Of a stretch of DNA of 23,764 nucleotides, positions 2,652 through 23,764 are shown piece after piece. A program made the translations under genes and the position numbers. The stretch's first letter is position 1; the number at the start of each line of letters is the position of its first letter. Source of the stretch: a virus. Location: the IMG/VR virus record IMGVR_UViG_3300025154_000385, positions 1 through 23,764 of that record. One strand, given 5' to 3'. The notes beneath the pieces are model-generated. The model made no database searches and was not told where the DNA came from. It was given only the letters and a program-made list of their open reading frames with translations.

Positions 2652-3551
2652 TTAAATCGCAATGTGAGCCGCAACAATGCGGGTCGTATGCGTCGCCTTG
2701 CGCCCGAAAACATTCAGGATTCGAGCCACGTCACCGAACTTCGTGGTATGGCGGAAAGTTTCAGGCGGCTTGATCTGCCCGGCGACGTCCACGGCGCTTT
2801 CGTGCATGAACAGCGCGTATGGCAGCGAATTCGATGTTGGGAGATTATTGCTTGGATAAACATCAAACCCCGACACGACATCCATTGCCCCCCGCGTAAG
2901 TGCGATTGAACGAATTGGGTCTGCCGCTTCAGTAATCGTAGCCGTCTTGACAACAGCCGCGCTTACTTCAGGCGGGACAACTGCGATACGTCCAGTATCA
3001 GGCACATCCAACTTGTCCAGCACTAGTTTCGCCTTAGCAAAAAGCGAAAGCGTGTAAAGTGACCCCGTCACTCCGGCCCCGGTGTAATCGCTGGTGCTGA
3101 GAATCTGATAAGGCACGAGAGTAATGCCCGTGGTCGCCCCGCCCCCGTATGTCGAGCCAAGCAGGGTTGTTCCGGCCTGCGACTGTGCAAGCGCCAGAAC
3201 ATTAGTCAGCGTGTTGGAAATCAGGGCGCTGACATAGTTGCGGATTGCCTGCGCCTCATCCGCCGTATTCGAGAACATCTGATTGATGTCGTAGAAAAGT
3301 TCCCCGATATAGCGAAATTGATCCACGGTCAAATCAGAAGTTGAGAATGCGGCGTTAGAATAGGTAAGGTCGCCAGTGCGATCCGAAAGAGTCTGCACGG
3401 TGGGAGCCGTGTAGGTCTTGATTTTGACGACGTTTCCGGGGAAAACATCGCCTTCATATTTTCGGCGAAAACGGGCGAGAACGCTCTGAGTATTTCCCCA
3501 CAACAGTTCCTCGAAGATGGTTGCCCACCGCGAGATGTCAAAGTCAGCCAT
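2652..3551 (-). CDS. Putative major capsid protein
   Basis: A 299-residue protein, the expected size for an HK97-fold major capsid subunit without a large prohead protease domain. It begins MADFDISRWATIFEELLWGN and continues through alternating beta-type and helical segments (VVKIKTYTAPTVQTLSDRTG; IRNYVSALISNTLTNVLALA), with a glycine/threonine-rich loop near the middle and a beta-rich C-terminal half ending in RKATHTTRIVAAHIAI. Gene order, portal then scaffold-like gene then this gene, is the classical arrangement of podovirus and siphovirus head modules and is the main support. The start has AAAGGA upstream, adjoining an inverted repeat at 3561-3580. I see no cysteine-rich or enzymatic motif. 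An alternative is a different abundant head protein, but no other gene here fits capsid better. Confidence 0.8.
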   Translation of the reverse strand: MADFDISRWATIFEELLWGNTQSVLARFRRKYEGDVFPGNVVKIKTYTAPTVQTLSDRTGDLTYSNAAFSTSDLTVDQFRYIGELFYDINQMFSNTADEAQAIRNYVSALISNTLTNVLALAQSQAGTTLLGSTYGGGATTGITLVPYQILSTSDYTGAGVTGSLYTLSLFAKAKLVLDKLDVPDTGRIAVVPPEVSAAVVKTATITEAADPIRSIALTRGAMDVVSGFDVYPSNNLPTSNSLPYALFMHESAVDVAGQIKPPETFRHTTKFGDVARILNVFGRKATHTTRIVAAHIAI

Positions 3552-4389: not shown

Positions 4390-6018
4390 TCAGGCCAGAG
4401 CCGTCGCTGCCTCTTGACTCTCGGCCATTATTTCCTCTGTATCAGGCCCCGGCATTTCTGCAGAGCCACTTTCATCTTCTTGAACGACCGGCGCAATCTT
4501 CGCCCGCTCGCTCATGGCTTTTATGCGTAAATCAAAGTCGGCTTCGATTGCAAGTTTTTTCTCTTCGGAAAACATCGGATACTCAGGATCGGCATAAACA
4601 AACAGCCGTTCCTTTTCAACCCGATACGTCGGCGAATTGGGGACAGCCTGACTAACTAACGTAAGATCGTTTGCGCGCTCGCTCATCGTCTGGACATTAA
4701 AATCATTCGGGTAGGATACTTGAGTCATTCGTTCTCTTGCAACCCTAGTATCGCCGTCGGCCTCCCACAAGGCCCTGAAGTAGTGGACTCGCTGCTCGGC
4801 CCATTCGAGGCGGTCTGCCAGCGTTGAAAGGTCTTGATTCGTGGGCAGGTAGTCCCACGCCTTTGACACCCCGCTAGTCTCATCCGCGCCCGCGCCAACC
4901 TGTCGAACCAGCATCAAGTCAAAGAGCTGTTTGAGCAGAGAGTTTCGCTCCTGAATCAAAATCCTATAGGGCTGGCCGTTGGTTTCAAGCAGTGTCGGCG
5001 CGAATTTCGCATCAAGCGGGACGCCGATAAATCGCGTCGAGCCGAAAGCCAGTGTAGTCCCCGGCGCGGGCTGACCCGAAATACACGCCGTGCTAACAGC
5101 CGAGAGCCGCACATCTTCCTCAATCTCTGATTCGAGATTGTAGAGTCGCCATATCAAATCCCAGACATCTGCTATCCGCGACACGCCCTGCATGTGATCA
5201 ATCCGGCGGGAAGGCACATAGACAAACGGAATTTCATGCAGCCCGTGAATCTGTGAAGCGACAACCACTTCTAGACCCTGTGCGTCCACGCCGTAGCGCG
5301 TCCATCCTTGGCGTGTCCATATCACTATGCGTTTAGTACTTTCGGCAGTTCGCTCTTGATTCAGCGCGATGTCCGAGGGAATCCACTCACGGAGTTTAAG
5401 TTCCAGAAGATTCCCGCTCGCGTCAACGCGCCAGTCCATGATGTCCGATTTACGGAAAAATGAGACGAATGGCGCAAGGCCCCACTCCTGCTGCTGGGCG
5501 AGAGACTTAGGCCGCAGCACTTCGCCAGTCTTTGGGTCAATCGGCGCGGGTGGACGATCTACAAGAATCCCGCAACCTCCTTCGACTTCCGGCCACGGGA
5601 AAACCAGCTCGGCCATGAAGTTATCAAGTGACATCCCGCCGCGATTGCAGTTTTCCAGAAAGTTTTCTTCGGCCTTTTCATCGCTATCCACAAAGAAAGC
5701 CCGATTGATCGCCCCGGCCTTGAATATGGCCGCAACCTTCAACATTAGTAGCCGCGCCGCAAAATTCAGATAGGTCGCCCGCTGAACCCGCTCATAAAAA
5801 TGCAGAGGAACTTCTTCGGGGTGGCGAAAGAGATAGCCATGACAGGCCGCGTAAGAAAAAGTATTTTGGGGATCGTCTGGATTTTGTCGCGGGGGTGGAT
5901 TCAAGGTTTCGCCAGCCTTGATAACCGCATCACCGCCCAAATAAAAATCAGCTGCCCGCGCATCACGAGCCGCACAAGCACTTACGAAGGGATGAACTTG
6001 GTCAGTGATGACTCCCAC
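4390..6018 (-). CDS. Putative portal protein (DUF4055-like)
   Basis: I place the start at the GTG at 6018: it has AGGAG seven bases upstream and begins VGVITDQVHPFVSACAARDA, giving 542 residues. The longer open frame up to 6078 lacks a ribosome-binding site. The size, the position between large terminase and scaffold-like gene, and the character of the N-terminal part (YERVQRATYLNFAARLLMLK, then FFVDSDEKAEENFLENCNRG) resemble the DUF4055 group of phage portals. Portals form the dodecameric DNA-entry ring at one capsid vertex and dock the terminase. The middle contains beta-rich segments with tryptophans (EWIPSDIALNQERTAESTKR). The last third is helical and ends in an acidic alanine-rich tail. 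No tape-measure or head-closure fusion is apparent. Alternatives are few given size and context. Confidence 0.82.
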   Translation of the reverse strand: MGVITDQVHPFVSACAARDARAADFYLGGDAVIKAGETLNPPPRQNPDDPQNTFSYAACHGYLFRHPEEVPLHFYERVQRATYLNFAARLLMLKVAAIFKAGAINRAFFVDSDEKAEENFLENCNRGGMSLDNFMAELVFPWPEVEGGCGILVDRPPAPIDPKTGEVLRPKSLAQQQEWGLAPFVSFFRKSDIMDWRVDASGNLLELKLREWIPSDIALNQERTAESTKRIVIWTRQGWTRYGVDAQGLEVVVASQIHGLHEIPFVYVPSRRIDHMQGVSRIADVWDLIWRLYNLESEIEEDVRLSAVSTACISGQPAPGTTLAFGSTRFIGVPLDAKFAPTLLETNGQPYRILIQERNSLLKQLFDLMLVRQVGAGADETSGVSKAWDYLPTNQDLSTLADRLEWAEQRVHYFRALWEADGDTRVARERMTQVSYPNDFNVQTMSERANDLTLVSQAVPNSPTYRVEKERLFVYADPEYPMFSEEKKLAIEADFDLRIKAMSERAKIAPVVQEDESGSAEMPGPDTEEIMAESQEAATALA

Positions 6019-7557: not shown

Positions 7558-8010
7558 TTAAGCATCTGGCAGATCGGAAATTTTTTCTGTCTCTTGTCCA
7601 CCAAGCCCGCGTTTCTCACGCTCTTGCTCCTCCCGATTCAGCCGGTCAAGGGCGCGTTGCAACGGATTGGTGTCTTCGCTCCCAAAGCTTGCGCGGGGGC
7701 CATAGTGCTCAGGGAACTCAAGCTCGAGGAGTCGCGCCGCCGCCGTCCAGTATTTCGGGTCGTTCGCTGCGATCCGAATTCTGTTCAGCAAGGCGAGTCG
7801 TCTTTGTTGGCGGGATTTTTTTAATTCTGAAAGAAATGTTTTATCGCTGGCCTTCCATGCCATGAAGGCGCGAACGGAAATTCCTGCGGCTTCGCAAGCT
7901 TCGTTCGTGGTGAATCCAGACCCGAATGCGGAAACGAGGATGGTCTTGATTTCTGGAGTGCGAATCGTAGGTTGTCCGCGTGGAGGGGCAGGGGGCTTTT
8001 TCGTTTTCAT
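7558..8010 (-). CDS. terS: Putative terminase small subunit
   Basis: A 150-residue protein directly before the large terminase. The N-terminus is basic and proline rich (MKTKKPPAPPRGQ). Residues about 30-58 form a helix-turn-helix (GSGFTTNEACEAAGISVRAF, then MAWKASD) of the type small terminases use to recognise the packaging site. A helical middle (KKSRQQRRLALLNRIRIAAN) suits oligomerisation, and the C-terminal tail is acidic and charged (REEQEREKRGLGGQE), as expected for contact with the large subunit. I find no good ribosome-binding site before the ATG at 8010, and no better in-frame start. Gene order supports the assignment strongly. A generic phage HTH protein is the alternative. Confidence 0.85.
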   Translation of the reverse strand: MKTKKPPAPPRGQPTIRTPEIKTILVSAFGSGFTTNEACEAAGISVRAFMAWKASDKTFLSELKKSRQQRRLALLNRIRIAANDPKYWTAAARLLELEFPEHYGPRASFGSEDTNPLQRALDRLNREEQEREKRGLGGQETEKISDLPDA

Positions 8011-9564: not shown

Positions 9565-10494
9565 TCAGAGACTCCCGAACATGTCCTCATCCTCACCATG
9601 ATGTTTTATCTCGGCAAGGTTGCGAACCGCTTGATGGTAGTAAGAGGGTTTTAATTCGATTCCAATCCCGCGCCGTCCGTTCATCACCGCTCCATAAACT
9701 TCAGAGCCGACGCCCATGAATGGCGTGAGCACAACCTCGCCGGGGTTAGACCACAAGACGCAGGCGCGCTCAATCACGTCGAGCTGAAGGGGACAAATGT
9801 GCTTTTCGTCCATTGGATCGCGCCCTGCTCTTGCGTTTAGTGTTCTTGTTTGGCGAATGTCCATCCAAACAGGAGATGCATAAGCGCGCCAGATGTTATG
9901 TGCCGCGCCAATTCCCACTCCTCCCGGCGCGTGTTTCCCACAATACGTTTTTAATCCGTCGAGGTGAGAAATCGGCGTTGCATTTTCTCCGGGCTTCCGA
10001 AAAGTCAAAAGATAATCTGGAAGTCCGGCGCGACAAATCGCACTATCCTTAACGAGTTGCTTGTGCATAAGGCCAAGTGCTTTTGTCCTCGTCGCCTCAA
10101 TCAACGGGTCTTTCCAAATGATGTGACGTGAATGATAGATGAACCCGTTGCTCTGAAACAGCCGGATAATATCTCCCGGAAAATCCTTCAATCCAATATA
10201 TCCGTCGCGTTCCTTCATCGCCGGAATATCTATACAATGAACCGCACAGTTGCGCCCAAGTTTCATGACTCGGAAAATCTCGCCGACAATATATCCGAAG
10301 TGCTCGAAGAATTCTGAGTAATTCCTACAATTCCCAAGGTCTGCGGGATTATCGCTATAGCAGTAGAGATCGGCAAATGGCGGAGAAAAAAGAGTCATGT
10401 CTACGCTTGACTCTGGCAGCGTTTTTAACACTTCGCACGAATCTCCGCAATAAAGTGCATATCTCTCTGTGATCGTTTGTTCCATCACAGCCAT
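9565..10494 (-). CDS. DNA methyltransferase, N6-adenine/N4-cytosine type
   Basis: A 309-residue methyltransferase in the order typical of the beta class. The catalytic motif DMTLFSPPFADLY is at residues about 32-44, near the N-terminus after the YCGDSCEVLKTLP segment. The cofactor-binding motif VVLTPFMGVGSEVYG is near residues 254-268, followed by GRRGIGIELKPSYY. The middle region (about 60-240) would carry target recognition. The start ATG at 10494 has AGGAGG seven bases upstream inside the preceding helicase gene and overlaps its end by ten bases, so the two are translationally coupled. The protein probably methylates phage DNA, giving protection from host restriction or altering regulation. 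No partner endonuclease gene is visible. Which base and sequence it modifies cannot be told. Confidence 0.92.
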   Translation of the reverse strand: MAVMEQTITERYALYCGDSCEVLKTLPESSVDMTLFSPPFADLYCYSDNPADLGNCRNYSEFFEHFGYIVGEIFRVMKLGRNCAVHCIDIPAMKERDGYIGLKDFPGDIIRLFQSNGFIYHSRHIIWKDPLIEATRTKALGLMHKQLVKDSAICRAGLPDYLLTFRKPGENATPISHLDGLKTYCGKHAPGGVGIGAAHNIWRAYASPVWMDIRQTRTLNARAGRDPMDEKHICPLQLDVIERACVLWSNPGEVVLTPFMGVGSEVYGAVMNGRRGIGIELKPSYYHQAVRNLAEIKHHGEDEDMFGSL

Positions 10495-12178: not shown

Positions 12179-13152
12179 TTTGTTTTTGCCTCTCCTGTTT
12201 TTTGGGAATCAAGCGCAGCCTTGTTTTCTTTTTTATCCCACGTCCTAAGCGAGTTATGCCCGAAATAAATCTGCGGCCCGCTTTTGAATCTATCCGCCAC
12301 CGCGTCCCAGGGATCGCCCCATGCCGCGATTTGGTCTAGCGAGGCATTACAGGCCAGCAGGACGGGCTTGAGATTTTCATATCGCAAGTTTATGAGGTTG
12401 TAAAAAGTAGTGGACTTGTAGGGTGTCCGATTGATTTTATCCGCGTCGTCAAGAATCAAGAGATCGGCAAGGTAGAGCCGATCAAGGATTTCGTTTTCTG
12501 ATTCATCGCTTGCAGGGTCATTCGAGGCCGCAAGTTTTTTCAGAAGCATCTCACCCTCGTAATAGGCGACAGTGACGTGATGTTTTTCACAGTGCTGTCG
12601 GACGCCAAGGCAAAGAAATGATTTTCCCGTTCCTTTCCCGCCGTAAATAAAACACGGGGAGCCTTCATGTTTCGGGTTTTTCAGGATCGGCCCAAGCCAC
12701 TCAGACATGACTCTGGTTTTGATCGTTGAAAGAGCCGTACGGGTTGCCGGTGGAAATTGATTCTGCGCTTCGCGGGCGGCTTGCAGATAGCGATGACCCG
12801 TGGGGGTCGAGTCTTGCCGGATAGATTCTCCCACGGCGGCGACGTGGTCTTGCTGGAGTCGCGCCACCATGTTTGGACAGGCACGGGTAGTCGGGCAATA
12901 GATGGATTCACGGGCGATATTGAGACAGGTAGGGCGAAAGGAAATAGAAACGCCACTGGAGTCCGTGCTTCGCTTCTGGATTATTTTTGCCCGCTCGACA
13001 AGAGCATCTTCGGCTGACAGGTGCGCGAGTTCCAGGAAGGCGGTTCGCCAGTTCCAACGCTCCCTCCATTCGAGGGCTTCGATAGGGGCATCGAGCAGAC
13101 AGGCTTCGCGCTTTGGCATTCCGCAATGTTTGCAAGATTGAACAGCAGTCAT
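12175..13152 (-). CDS. DnaC/IstB-type helicase loader, AAA+ ATPase
   Basis: A 325-residue AAA+ protein. Walker A is IYGGKGTGKSFLC near residues 169-181, Walker B is LLILDDADKI near 231-240, sensor 1 lies in VLLACNASLD near 264-273, and a DRF near 287-289 could hold a sensor or arginine-finger residue. This matches the DnaC/IstB group that delivers the replicative helicase to single-stranded DNA. The first 95 residues are unusual for the family: they contain SCKHC at 6-10 and a later set C76, C86 and C92, which could bind zinc or an iron-sulfur cluster. The start ATG overlaps the DUF1376 gene's stop as ATGA. No replicative helicase is encoded here, so it may load the host one. A primosomal role fits the upstream initiator-like gene. 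Confidence 0.88.
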   Translation of the reverse strand: MTAVQSCKHCGMPKREACLLDAPIEALEWRERWNWRTAFLELAHLSAEDALVERAKIIQKRSTDSSGVSISFRPTCLNIARESIYCPTTRACPNMVARLQQDHVAAVGESIRQDSTPTGHRYLQAAREAQNQFPPATRTALSTIKTRVMSEWLGPILKNPKHEGSPCFIYGGKGTGKSFLCLGVRQHCEKHHVTVAYYEGEMLLKKLAASNDPASDESENEILDRLYLADLLILDDADKINRTPYKSTTFYNLINLRYENLKPVLLACNASLDQIAAWGDPWDAVADRFKSGPQIYFGHNSLRTWDKKENKAALDSQKTGEAKTK

Positions 13153-14306
13153 ATCGGGCCTACACTTCTATGGCCTTTAAGGAATTGCTCCGTCTCGGCC
13201 CTTGTGACTTCGGGTTGTTTGATTTCTGCGGCGGCGAGTTCTGCGTCGCGTTTATCGGCAGCGTCTGCCAGTTCGGTCGCTGTCGGGCACGGCCTTCGTC
13301 GTTGCGCTTCCTCAGCCTCGCGCTCGGCAAGCCAAGCCTGTGTTTCTTCACGCTCCTTCGCGTCTTCGGCATCCCACAGGGCAATTTCTTCCGGCGTTGG
13401 CGTCTTCATAGGCGGGGCCGTCTTTTTCTGGGCATCCTTCTGCCCGTTGCCCGCCCGCCACTTTTGCGCTTTCTGGATAAGCGTTGACTTCTGGCGGATA
13501 AGGGCGTGGGTGTATCCGCGCTTCATATTCCCAAGCCCGAAAGCCCAGTCCGGGTCAGCGGCGGGGTCTGCCAAGTACTCGAGCAGCAGGTTGACCTGTC
13601 CAAGCCCGGTGTCGTCGAGGATGGTGTCCATGACCCCGGCAAAGAAAAGGGCGACAGCTTGGGAGCCGTGAGTTCCCCCGTCGCGGGTTGCTCTGAGGTC
13701 AGCATAGAGTGTTCCAAGGTTGACGGCTTCTGGGTGTCGGTATTTGTGGGGTAGTTTGTTGGTTTTTTCTTTGTTTTTTTGTTGTGTTTTTTTTGTGGGG
13801 GTAGGGGGTTCTTTTTCTTTCTTTGAAGATGAAGAAGAAGATGAAGAAGAAGATGAAGAAGAAGAGCACGACCAATCGTTAGACGATTGGTTAGACGATT
13901 GGTTAGACGATTGGTTAGACGGATCGTTATCGTTTTCTCTCTCAGCAATCCTCTGTTGGCGAGCCAGAACTCCAGCCCTCGACGCTGATTCTCTTCGACT
14001 TCTGCGCTCCGCCTGTGCTTCTTTTTGCTTTTGTAGGCGGTCGTTGAAGTAATACTCCGCCCCGTCAATAGTCCTTCGATCAAAATGCTGTTCAATGGTC
14101 GGCCATGCTTCAGCAAGCTCGGATTCGGTACAACCAATCATTGAACGAATCGTTGAACGATTGGTTGGCAATCCCCTTGACATCGGGTAAGTCCAGAACT
14201 GATCGAGTAGATCACGGTAAATCGCACGCGCAACAAGAGACATTTCGTGGCGCGTGCCGCTCGCAAGCCAATCCTTCGGATACCACTGATACGCTGGGGC
14301 GTCCAT
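13149..14306 (-). CDS. DUF1376-type replication initiator-like protein
   Basis: A 385-residue protein. Residues about 5-95 (YQWYPKDWLASGTRHEMSLV onwards, including RAIYRDLLDQFW) match the DUF1376/YdaU N-terminal domain found in phage proteins that sit before DnaC-like loaders and are thought to start replication. Residues about 129-161 are low complexity: SNQ repeats encoded by 12-bp DNA repeats, followed by a long serine run. A basic linker (KKEKEPPTPTKKTQQ) then leads to a helical C-terminal half rich in glutamate and alanine. This is the lambda-O style layout: DNA-binding N-terminus, linker, and a C-terminus that would contact the loader. The start has GAAAGGG upstream. The gene overlaps the loader by ATGA. 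The candidate origin inside it is listed separately. Confidence 0.85.
   Translation of the reverse strand: MDAPAYQWYPKDWLASGTRHEMSLVARAIYRDLLDQFWTYPMSRGLPTNRSTIRSMIGCTESELAEAWPTIEQHFDRRTIDGAEYYFNDRLQKQKEAQAERRSRRESASRAGVLARQQRIAERENDNDPSNQSSNQSSNQSSNDWSCSSSSSSSSSSSSSSKKEKEPPTPTKKTQQKNKEKTNKLPHKYRHPEAVNLGTLYADLRATRDGGTHGSQAVALFFAGVMDTILDDTGLGQVNLLLEYLADPAADPDWAFGLGNMKRGYTHALIRQKSTLIQKAQKWRAGNGQKDAQKKTAPPMKTPTPEEIALWDAEDAKEREETQAWLAEREAEEAQRRRPCPTATELADAADKRDAELAAAEIKQPEVTRAETEQFLKGHRSVGPI
13828..13926. repeat. 12-bp iteron-like repeats and purine-rich tract, candidate replication origin
   Basis: Three exact tandem copies of TTAGACGATTGG occupy 13879-13890, 13891-13902 and 13903-13914, and a partial fourth runs to 13926. 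The first copy forms an inverted repeat with the preceding bases: CCAATCGT, three bases, ACGATTGG. Next to them lie three exact copies of GATGAAGAAGAA (13828-13863), and beyond that a T-rich stretch (about 13760-13820) giving strong strand asymmetry. Iterons next to an easily melted, asymmetric tract inside an initiator gene is the layout of the lambda origin. The repeats are in frame and encode SNQS units and serines, so a coding explanation is also possible. Confidence 0.55.
14141..14164. repeat. Second pair of 12-bp iteron-related repeats
   Basis: TTGAACGAATCG (14141-14152) is followed directly by TTGAACGATTGG (14153-14164), with CCAATCA just before at 14134-14140. The second copy differs from the main iteron TTAGACGATTGG at two positions. 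It lies in the part of the same gene encoding the DUF1376 domain, where the protein is not low complexity, so coding bias does not easily explain the match. It may be a second initiator-binding site about 240 bp from the first. Confidence 0.45.
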
Positions 14307-19821: not shown

Positions 19822-20097
19822 TCAGTTTTGGGCGGTTGTAATCACCTTCTCGAATAAGTGCCATACGAAAGGCGGGGCCTGAAACGAGGCGACGTGATTG
19901 ACTGCGCCCGGAATCGGATGACCTGTCCCGCGCAAGACAAATTTACGAAGTTTAGGTTGCTCATTCACGTCAACAAGCGCCCAGATGCAGGGGCCGGAAC
20001 CGATCTGAGACTCAACTAAAACAATCTTCGCCCCACCGGGCATACCTATTTCAAACTCATCTCGAATAGGAAACGCATACTTGAATACTTGTCTCAT
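19822..20097 (-). CDS. Small conserved-looking phage protein (DUF7352-like)
   Basis: A 91-residue protein that I read as belonging to a widespread family of small phage proteins, possibly DUF7352. The marks are an N-terminal K-Y-x-F-P-I strand, the PGGAKIVLVESQIGSGPCIW segment, a V-L-R-G-T-G-H-P-I-P motif near residues 53-62, and a closing APPFVWHLFEK. The family is typically found alone in phage genomes and its role is unknown. The ATG has AAGGAGAAGGG upstream. Immediately upstream of that site lies the end of the large structured RNA (20121-20740), so this gene is the first coding sequence after the RNA, and the RNA could be its leader. Confidence 0.78.
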   Translation of the reverse strand: MRQVFKYAFPIRDEFEIGMPGGAKIVLVESQIGSGPCIWALVDVNEQPKLRKFVLRGTGHPIPGAVNHVASFQAPPFVWHLFEKVITTAQN

Positions 20098-20425
20098 TTT
20101 CCCTTCTCCTTTTCTTTATTCTGTGCAACGGCCCGAAGGCCCACTCAAGCGGTTTCCCGCAACCACAGCCGCCCAACTTTGGAGGCGCGGGGTCGAGCGG
20201 CGTTTCCGTGAGACGCTAGCTTCTCACTCGTTTCATCCCTCGACCCTGTCAACGGCTTCACGTGCCGTAAGCGCCTCAACTTTTTGCCAGCGAAACCCGC
20301 CTTGTCAGCTCTGGTAAGCTGCGGCCCGTCGGCTGATTTCGCGTTTCGACCACTTTCCGTCTTGTGGCCTTGCGGACACCCGGTAGCAGCCCTTCCTGTC
20401 CACAACGAGCGGGTCTTGAGAACTA

Positions 20426-20448
20426 TCGCCGGCAAACTCAAAGATCGT
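20426..20448 (-). repeat. 23-bp direct repeat in the structured RNA, copy A (domain III)
   Basis: The 23 bases here match 20616-20638 except at one position (C here, T there). On the RNA strand the first part is the single-stranded-looking ACGATCTTTGAG, and the rest is the 5' arm of the domain III closing helix. The single difference turns an A-U pair in copy B into a G-U pair here, so pairing is kept on the minus strand only. Confidence 0.85.
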
Positions 20449-20615
20449 ATTTTTGCCAGCGACGCCGGATTCTCACCGACACGATGCGACCATTAACGGA
20501 ACTCCTATCTATCACGACAATTTCGCTTTCGCTGGAATGTCGCTTACCATTCTACTAGGCGTTTCCCGTTGCGAGACCGCCGTTCAGTCCCGCAGGTTCG
20601 TTCCCGCCGAACCGG

Positions 20616-20638
20616 TCGCTGGCAAACTCAAAGATCGT
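20616..20638 (-). repeat. 23-bp direct repeat in the structured RNA, copy B (domain II)
   Basis: Second copy of the repeat at 20426-20448. On the RNA strand it supplies the invariant ACGATCTTTGAG followed by the 5' arm of the domain II closing helix (TTTGCCAGCGA). Both repeats stand in the same place relative to their domains, which suggests an ancient module duplication or a shared docking element. Confidence 0.85.
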
Positions 20639-20755
20639 GGCGCATGAAGCGCCGAAGTTAAGTGGGGCTGGCCGGTGACGAACCATTTCACTACGAGCCA
20701 TTCTCTCGCGCTTGTCTGGTGCGACCAGACCGCAGCCCCATACTTTGAAGCCCGT

Positions 20756-21103
20756 TCAAGTCTTCAGTTCATCAAAAGTCTCGGATTTCAAAATCTCCAA
20801 ATCTTTTACTCGGACATCTCCAGCCTTAATTGTTTCTCGCAGCGACGCCCTGTAGTCTGTTCGCATGAGAATACAACCACAAAACGCGCAGATTGAAAGA
20901 CGCTCTAGGATATAGTTTCCTGCTTTTGAATAGATAGGCTTATCTTCTCGCGCAAGACTATTACAATCTGGACACCGTGCAGAGTCGATTAGGGAACGAA
21001 TCCTTTGCTTAAGCCAGTCGTCAAGCCACCACGCATCTTCCTTCTTAGAATCATACAAAAGAAGCTCCTGAAAAATTTCCATCTCTGTTCGCTCATGTTT
21101 CAT
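20756..21103 (-). CDS. Small zinc-ribbon-like protein, 115 residues
   Basis: A 115-residue protein with GAAAGGG before its ATG. It starts with a charged helical segment (MEIFQELLLYDSKKEDAWWL, DDWLKQRIRSLIDSA), then has RCPDCNSLAREDKP (Cys 44 and 47) and LSICAFCGCILM (Cys near 72, 75 and 77), a two-knuckle zinc ribbon. The C-terminus is helical and charged. The family is not recognised; zinc ribbons of this type often bind nucleic acids. It ends 15 bases before the structured RNA begins, so the two are probably on one transcript, or the RNA promoter lies inside this gene. Confidence 0.75.
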   Translation of the reverse strand: MKHERTEMEIFQELLLYDSKKEDAWWLDDWLKQRIRSLIDSARCPDCNSLAREDKPIYSKAGNYILERLSICAFCGCILMRTDYRASLRETIKAGDVRVKDLEILKSETFDELKT

Positions 21104-23604: not shown

Positions 23605-23764
23605 TCAGTCAAAAATACCCTTCGAGATCAACCATGTCGGGATCGTTTCTCGTCGGAGTTTATCGCACCCACTCAGATAAAGCCCGCCCCCGATAGACAT
23701 GCCTTCGGGAATTGTCAGCGAGGTTAGAGCCGAACACCCGCGTAGATCAAGCCAGCCCCCGATA
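23605..23764 (-). CDS. Leucine-rich-repeat-like protein, C-terminal part only
   Basis: An open minus-strand frame enters from the right edge and stops at TGA 23605-23607, giving the last 52 residues. It contains GGWLDLRGCSALTSLTIPEG, then a second, related unit beginning MSIGGGLYLSGCDKL, and ends TWLISKGIFD. Both units share GG-x-L-x-L-x-GC and TIP/LTIPEG features at a spacing of about 23 residues, like the LRR-type repeats of some phage and bacterial surface or accessory proteins. The N-terminal part, any signal peptide and the number of repeats lie outside the window. The role is unknown; binding to another protein is typical of such repeats. Confidence 0.65.
   Translation of the reverse strand, partial: IGGWLDLRGCSALTSLTIPEGMSIGGGLYLSGCDKLRRETIPTWLISKGIFD

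Follow-up and report, generated by a model that had tools for sequence, protein, structure and literature searches.

To our knowledge, only a few large ornate RNAs of phages are known, and their functions are open. GOLLD assembles into a 14-mer RNA cage and is often located near tRNA islands, which is not a strict requirement, and ROOL is a homo-octamer that forms through conserved kissing loops. GOLLD, ROOL and OLE (Ornate Large Extremophilic RNA) form homo-oligomers via kissing loops and A-minor contacts; OLE dimerises, partly through a palindromic loop, and its self-pairing palindromic loops are GGCC, GAUC and AGCU (PMC12286853). Protein-free assembly of large RNAs, in part by palindromic loops, has precedents in all three (PMC12286853).

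The locus described here belongs to a tailed phage and is credible, on the basis of folding models, as an orphan structured RNA outside the catalogued classes, as far as tested, with three domains well supported by folding and two doubtful.

Genomic setting and coding content

The window, which is the whole stretch of DNA that was analysed (23,764 nt), is an IMG/VR virus record and is contained in a longer record, IMGVR_UViG_3300009285_001551 (46,227 bp, hereafter the 46-kb contig), as bases 21740-45503 with 16 mismatches. There are no mismatches from 7760 to the window end, so the RNA region is identical in both. Fourteen of the 16 differences are concentrated in 7627-7759 (a 150-aa gene before the terminase) and in 4570-4622 (the portal gene), and this clustering suggests local recombination or mixed strains. 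The source is a tailed phage that encodes a portal and a major head protein and has nearly all of its genes on the minus strand. Its terminase matches only itself in IMG/VR, in two records, and has a 26%-identical relative in a Bacillus phage, while the relatives of its nuclease are 29-30% identical. In MW202801, a phage related by the nuclease gene, no comparable gap is found beside that gene. A 69-bp unit repeated in tandem (3.2 copies, 96% match), apparently within a reading frame and forming a 23-aa repeat, occupies the right edge of the window (23675-23764, continuing at L064:11414-11635), and the end at 23764 may be an assembly break on this repeat. A DUF1376-like protein with long serine and SNQSSNQSS low-complexity runs is encoded at 13149-14306.

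The interval and its two neighbours are:
20756..21103, minus strand: upstream gene, 115 aa, no family assigned, with two CxxC pairs, a zinc-ribbon-like feature seen by reading the sequence
20098..20755, minus strand: gene-free interval holding the structured RNA; codon log-odds about 0; folding z -3.72 on the minus strand and -1.24 on the plus strand
19822..20097, minus strand: downstream gene, DUF7352 (PF24043), 91 aa, with its own Shine-Dalgarno sequence

The RNA-like part of the interval has about 620 bases, at about 20121-20740. It had been placed 15 bases after the stop of one gene and just before the ribosome-binding site of the next, and both borders agree with this: the 115-aa gene ends at 20756, 15 bases before the 20740 edge, and AAAGGAGAAGGGAAA precedes the ATG of the DUF7352 gene, whose start is 20097. 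The 658-base gap between these genes is the largest ORF-free gap of the 46-kb contig, which is tightly packed, once a biasless 98-codon TTG frame is discounted. This frame, the longest of the interval, has neither a Shine-Dalgarno sequence nor a Pfam match. Each minus-strand frame of 20100-20755 contains eight stops, and the codon log-odds are about 0, compared with 0.04-0.22 in the neighbouring genes. The claim that the interval holds no supportable gene is thus borne out by stops in all frames, by the lack of codon bias and by the lack of a protein-family match. No tRNA or tmRNA is present in the region, and no tRNA is found anywhere in the 46 kb of a contig that is possibly incomplete.

A hidden peptide, TIFEFA[S/G]D, whose frames are present in both copies of a 23-nt repeat of the interval, was considered and rejected. 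These frames have no Shine-Dalgarno start, no codon bias and no accepted family match (one nucleoporin line is below the cut-off, E 0.011), and the S/G change between the copies is non-synonymous.

Folding of the RNA region

The minus strand of 20121-20740 has a minimum free energy (MFE) of -261.1 kcal/mol against a mean of -235.4 kcal/mol for 60 dinucleotide shuffles (25.7 below, z -3.72), whereas the plus strand is 8.1 kcal/mol below its shuffles (z -1.24). The RNA region is the strongest of 29 minus-strand windows of 620 nt, the other 28, one of which overlaps it in part, deviating by -13.1 to +14.9. A slightly longer stretch, folded separately with 20 shuffles, gives z -3.94 on the minus strand but also -3.46 on the plus strand, which leaves the tighter 620-nt test as the basis of the strand contrast. 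In windows of 300 nt, several coding stretches score as low as or lower than the RNA region, whose folding signal is therefore long range. Minus-strand 300-nt z values of -4.0 to -4.5 are reached at 3151-3450 and 9751-10200, within the genes of the major head protein and of a DNA methyltransferase-like protein, beating every 300-nt window of the RNA region.

The helices had been described as nearly all perfect Watson-Crick, which is overstated: 19 of the 188 pairs of the fold are G-U, and the counts of perfect helices of at least 7-8 bp match those of shuffles (7 against a mean of 5.7; 3 against 1.9). The signal lies in total stability and in long helices. The G-U wobbles of the original prediction are present in the fold where they had been placed, and its assignment of the RNA to the minus strand is upheld by the strand-specific stability in the 620-nt test (z -3.72 against -1.24), by the lack of coding signal and by a paralogous domain frame. 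From 5' to 3', the elements of the fold are:
20663..20740, minus strand: candidate domain I, 8-bp closing helix UGGGGCUG/CAGCCCCA; z -2.0 alone, P 0.01
20662-20655/20179-20172, minus strand: candidate long-range helix CUUAACUU/AAGUUGGG, inside which lie the hairpin and domains II-IV
20639..20653, minus strand: hairpin GGCGC-UUCAU-GCGCC between domains I and II, P 1.00
20443..20636, minus strand: domain II, 12-bp closing helix 20626-20615/20463-20452, P 0.98; four-part interior
20283..20436, minus strand: domain III, 11-bp closing helix 20436-20426/20293-20283 with one G-U; P 0.94, z -2.95
20182..20277, minus strand: domain IV, 7-bp closing helix, inner 8-bp helix GGGUCGAG/CUCGACCC, two hairpins; P 0.95-1.00, z -3.99
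20121..20168, minus strand: candidate domain V, three-way junction with GAAA (20156-20153) and UUCG (20137-20134); z -0.7 alone, P 0.00-0.11

Every helix named in the original prediction exists; the closing helices of 8, 12, 11, 7 and 5 bp and the GAAA and UUCG loops are all found where they had been proposed and nest without conflict. Of the five domains originally claimed, II, III and IV are robust (closing P 0.94-0.98), but I and V are not (P about 0.01 and 0.00 in the full-length ensemble), because the two ends of the RNA prefer pairing with each other; the region of candidate domain I is predicted to favour pairing with the 3' end. Forcing all five domains raises the energy by only 3.5 kcal/mol over the MFE, a difference covered by the error of the model, and the choice between domains I and V and end-to-end pairing is beyond energy models. 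Only a fold constrained to contain domains I and V has the candidate long-range helix, whose probability in the unconstrained ensemble is 0.03. Folded alone, domains I and V are weak and domains II, III and IV are strong, domain II having z -3.66 (20452-20626). Domain II also has an outer clamp, GAUC/GAUC (20636-20633/20446-20443, P 0.97). In domain III the closing helix is stacked on an 8-bp helix and there are three inner hairpins. Domain IV has the same stability on the plus strand, and its apical loop AGCUAGCG (20221-20214) contains the palindrome GCUAGC, which is not significant, since about 0.28 such 6-nt palindromes in some hairpin loop are expected by chance from the loop lengths.

The 620-nt RNA contains four copies of the pentamer AAUGG (minus strand, 20698-20702, 20683-20687, 20547-20551 and 20490-20494, one of them in a hairpin loop), where about 0.6 would be expected at equal base frequencies. 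Short GC-rich hairpins (e.g. CCCGCCCGGACTCGCCGCCGGGCTGGGGG) recur, as judged by eye, in intergenic gaps of the contig (L062), at about 600-900 and 1200-1320, at least one of them on the minus strand directly before a ribosome-binding site, and the GGGCC-UUCG-GGCC hairpin before the DUF7352 gene may belong to this recurrent kind.

Domains II and III have a common closing frame around unlike interiors, a feature absent from the original prediction. The frame consists of a 23-nt direct repeat (96% identical) and a common 3' strand, with the consensus ACGAUCUUUGAGUUUGCC(A/G)GCGA for the 5' strand and UCGCUGGCAAAAA for the 3' strand. The two copies of the repeat are:
20616..20638, minus strand: frame copy 1, ACGAUCUUUGAGUUUGCCAGCGA
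20426..20448, minus strand: frame copy 2, ACGAUCUUUGAGUUUGCCGGCGA, 96% identical to copy 1

The interiors of the two domains have no evident likeness, and domain II is the only other match in the window to a covariance model of domain III, via the frame (E 0.011). The sole substitution within the 11 shared pairs changes A-U to G-U, a change that leaves the minus strand paired, whereas the plus strand would have an A-C mismatch there. This is a single event, yet one that does not depend on energy parameters. The 5' frame of domain III also supplies the GAUC (20446-20443) that clamps domain II. One of the two domains probably arose through duplication of the frame.

Searches for relatives

Scans of the window and of the 46-kb contig with Rfam at gathering thresholds give no family in either, and the RNA region, with lax filters and E<=5, has a single irrelevant 15-bit match (E 2.6). 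The RNA had been suggested as a possible member of the GOLLD or ROOL class, which these searches do not sustain. At E<=10 the GOLLD model (RF02032) has no match in the window or the 46-kb contig, the ROOL model (RF03087) has none, control genomes giving none in this search either, and there is no tRNA island. No credible match is thus obtained with GOLLD, ROOL or the whole of Rfam. The region has no blastn match among phages and plasmids. When IMG/VR is scanned for CTTTGAGTTTGCCRGCGA, ACGATCTTTGAGTTTG, the closing frame in paired form and the repeat in doubled form, only the same phage proves significantly similar to the rest of the RNA; at the other motif loci, those flanks that were inspected, and also the one closing-frame match, resemble gene or chance sequence. 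Relatives of the flanking genes in IMG/VR are distant and exist for DUF7352 only, and the RNA is detected in none of them with BLAST, nhmmer or covariance models for domains III and IV. No nhmmer similarity is found among the matches listed in a pattern scan of GTDB. Class- or phylum-wide samples of about 1,150 genomes contain one 26-base and one 46-base match, which are taken as chance from their length and the number of genomes searched. The collection of homologues, nhmmer being among the searches, recovers only the same phage, identical over the region. Motif scans require exact matches and would overlook homologues with an altered frame, so this absence means no close homologue and not no homologue.

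Proposed nature of the RNA and comparison with known large RNAs

Slightly better than an even chance is given to a stand-alone structured non-coding phage RNA, about 500-620 nt long and encoded by the minus strand within the leftward gene run, formed by a chain of domains and acting in trans as a scaffold. By the folding models the structured-RNA step of this proposal is a likely one, and the step to a scaffold or oligomer a guess. The RNA would be co-transcribed within the leftward polycistronic run and then probably released by processing; co-transcription is suggested by the same-strand gene run together with the fact that no sigma-70 promoter or intrinsic terminator of its own is recognised between the genes. 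Its body, as predicted by folding, would consist of three or more autonomous helical domains in a row, two of which have, at the sequence level, one duplicated closing frame around different interiors. It may act in trans as a compact scaffold, where the repeated frame would be a reused docking or stacking unit and the GCUAGC loop and the two GAUC clamps could serve as contacts from one RNA copy to another, broadly as in GOLLD, ROOL and OLE, although the RNA is unrelated to them in sequence. A more specific proposal, that of a new single-phage RNA class in which the frame was duplicated and the interiors varied, and which self-assembles via the palindromic loop and the clamps into an RNA-only particle, is tentative and rather doubtful.

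An unlikely alternative is a cis-acting structured intercistronic leader, which would insulate or stabilise the DUF7352 gene and its cluster or control how they are translated or processed. The RNA directly precedes the Shine-Dalgarno sequence of 19822-20097 with no terminator recognised between them, and the UUCG and GAAA hairpins are just before the ribosome site, as other short GC-rich hairpins precede genes on the same contig (about 600-900). However, the Shine-Dalgarno sequence is outside the fold and unpaired in the MFE structure, giving no indication of a simple translational lock; nothing that matches the leader in sequence accompanies the DUF7352 relatives of 25 other viral contigs, and 620 nt far exceeds the need of such a role. 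Rather improbable is a non-functional, decayed or recently inserted GC-rich stretch that folds by chance. The lack of homologues in the collections searched, perfect-helix counts equal to shuffles and unexceptional 300-nt z-scores would agree with it, but not the strand-specific z of -3.7 over the full region, the best of 29 windows, nor the 11- and 12-bp domain-closing helices on one duplicated frame, and the reading frames tested contain no protein-family remnant. A DNA-level element (replication origin, packaging or recombination site), with inverted repeats acting as duplex or single-stranded DNA, is very unlikely: 12-bp inverted repeats 151 nt apart, the 23-nt direct repeat and a domain IV as stable on either strand would suit it, but stability is confined to one strand for domain III and for the region as a whole, domain II is far more stable on the minus strand, G-U pairs have no DNA counterpart, and the sign of the GC skew is unchanged here, with genes and direction running on unbroken. 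That the RNA is a divergent representative of one of the known classes of large RNAs (GOLLD, ROOL, OLE, HEARO) or a self-splicing intron is hardly credible, as size, phage location and ornate fold are set against the lack of an Rfam, GOLLD or ROOL match (E<=10 for the two models), of a tRNA island and, for the intron, of a split gene around the region.

If the stand-alone RNA is real, an unrelated RNA with duplicated domains would suggest that phages invent such RNAs repeatedly and that large phage RNAs can grow via duplication of a closing frame, and structural studies would gain a compact construct; should it prove to be just a structured leader or chance folding, its significance is small.

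Among the known systems, OLE is similar in being ornate and about 600 nt long, but OLE lives in extremophilic Gram-positive bacteria with protein partners, and the RNA described here has no Rfam match. With GOLLD it shares the character of a large ornate phage RNA with separate domains, and GNRA-type and palindromic loops are present; unlike GOLLD, it is shorter, with no model match, no recognisable conserved 3' half and no tRNA nearby. ROOL is likewise a multi-domain phage or prophage RNA of about 600 nt, of unknown function and with no known protein partner, from which the RNA described here differs in having no match to a model that was silent in the controls too, no tRNA island and no homologues. 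In the generic sense it resembles a large structured phage RNA, being non-coding and, by prediction, stabler than shuffles on the transcribed strand.
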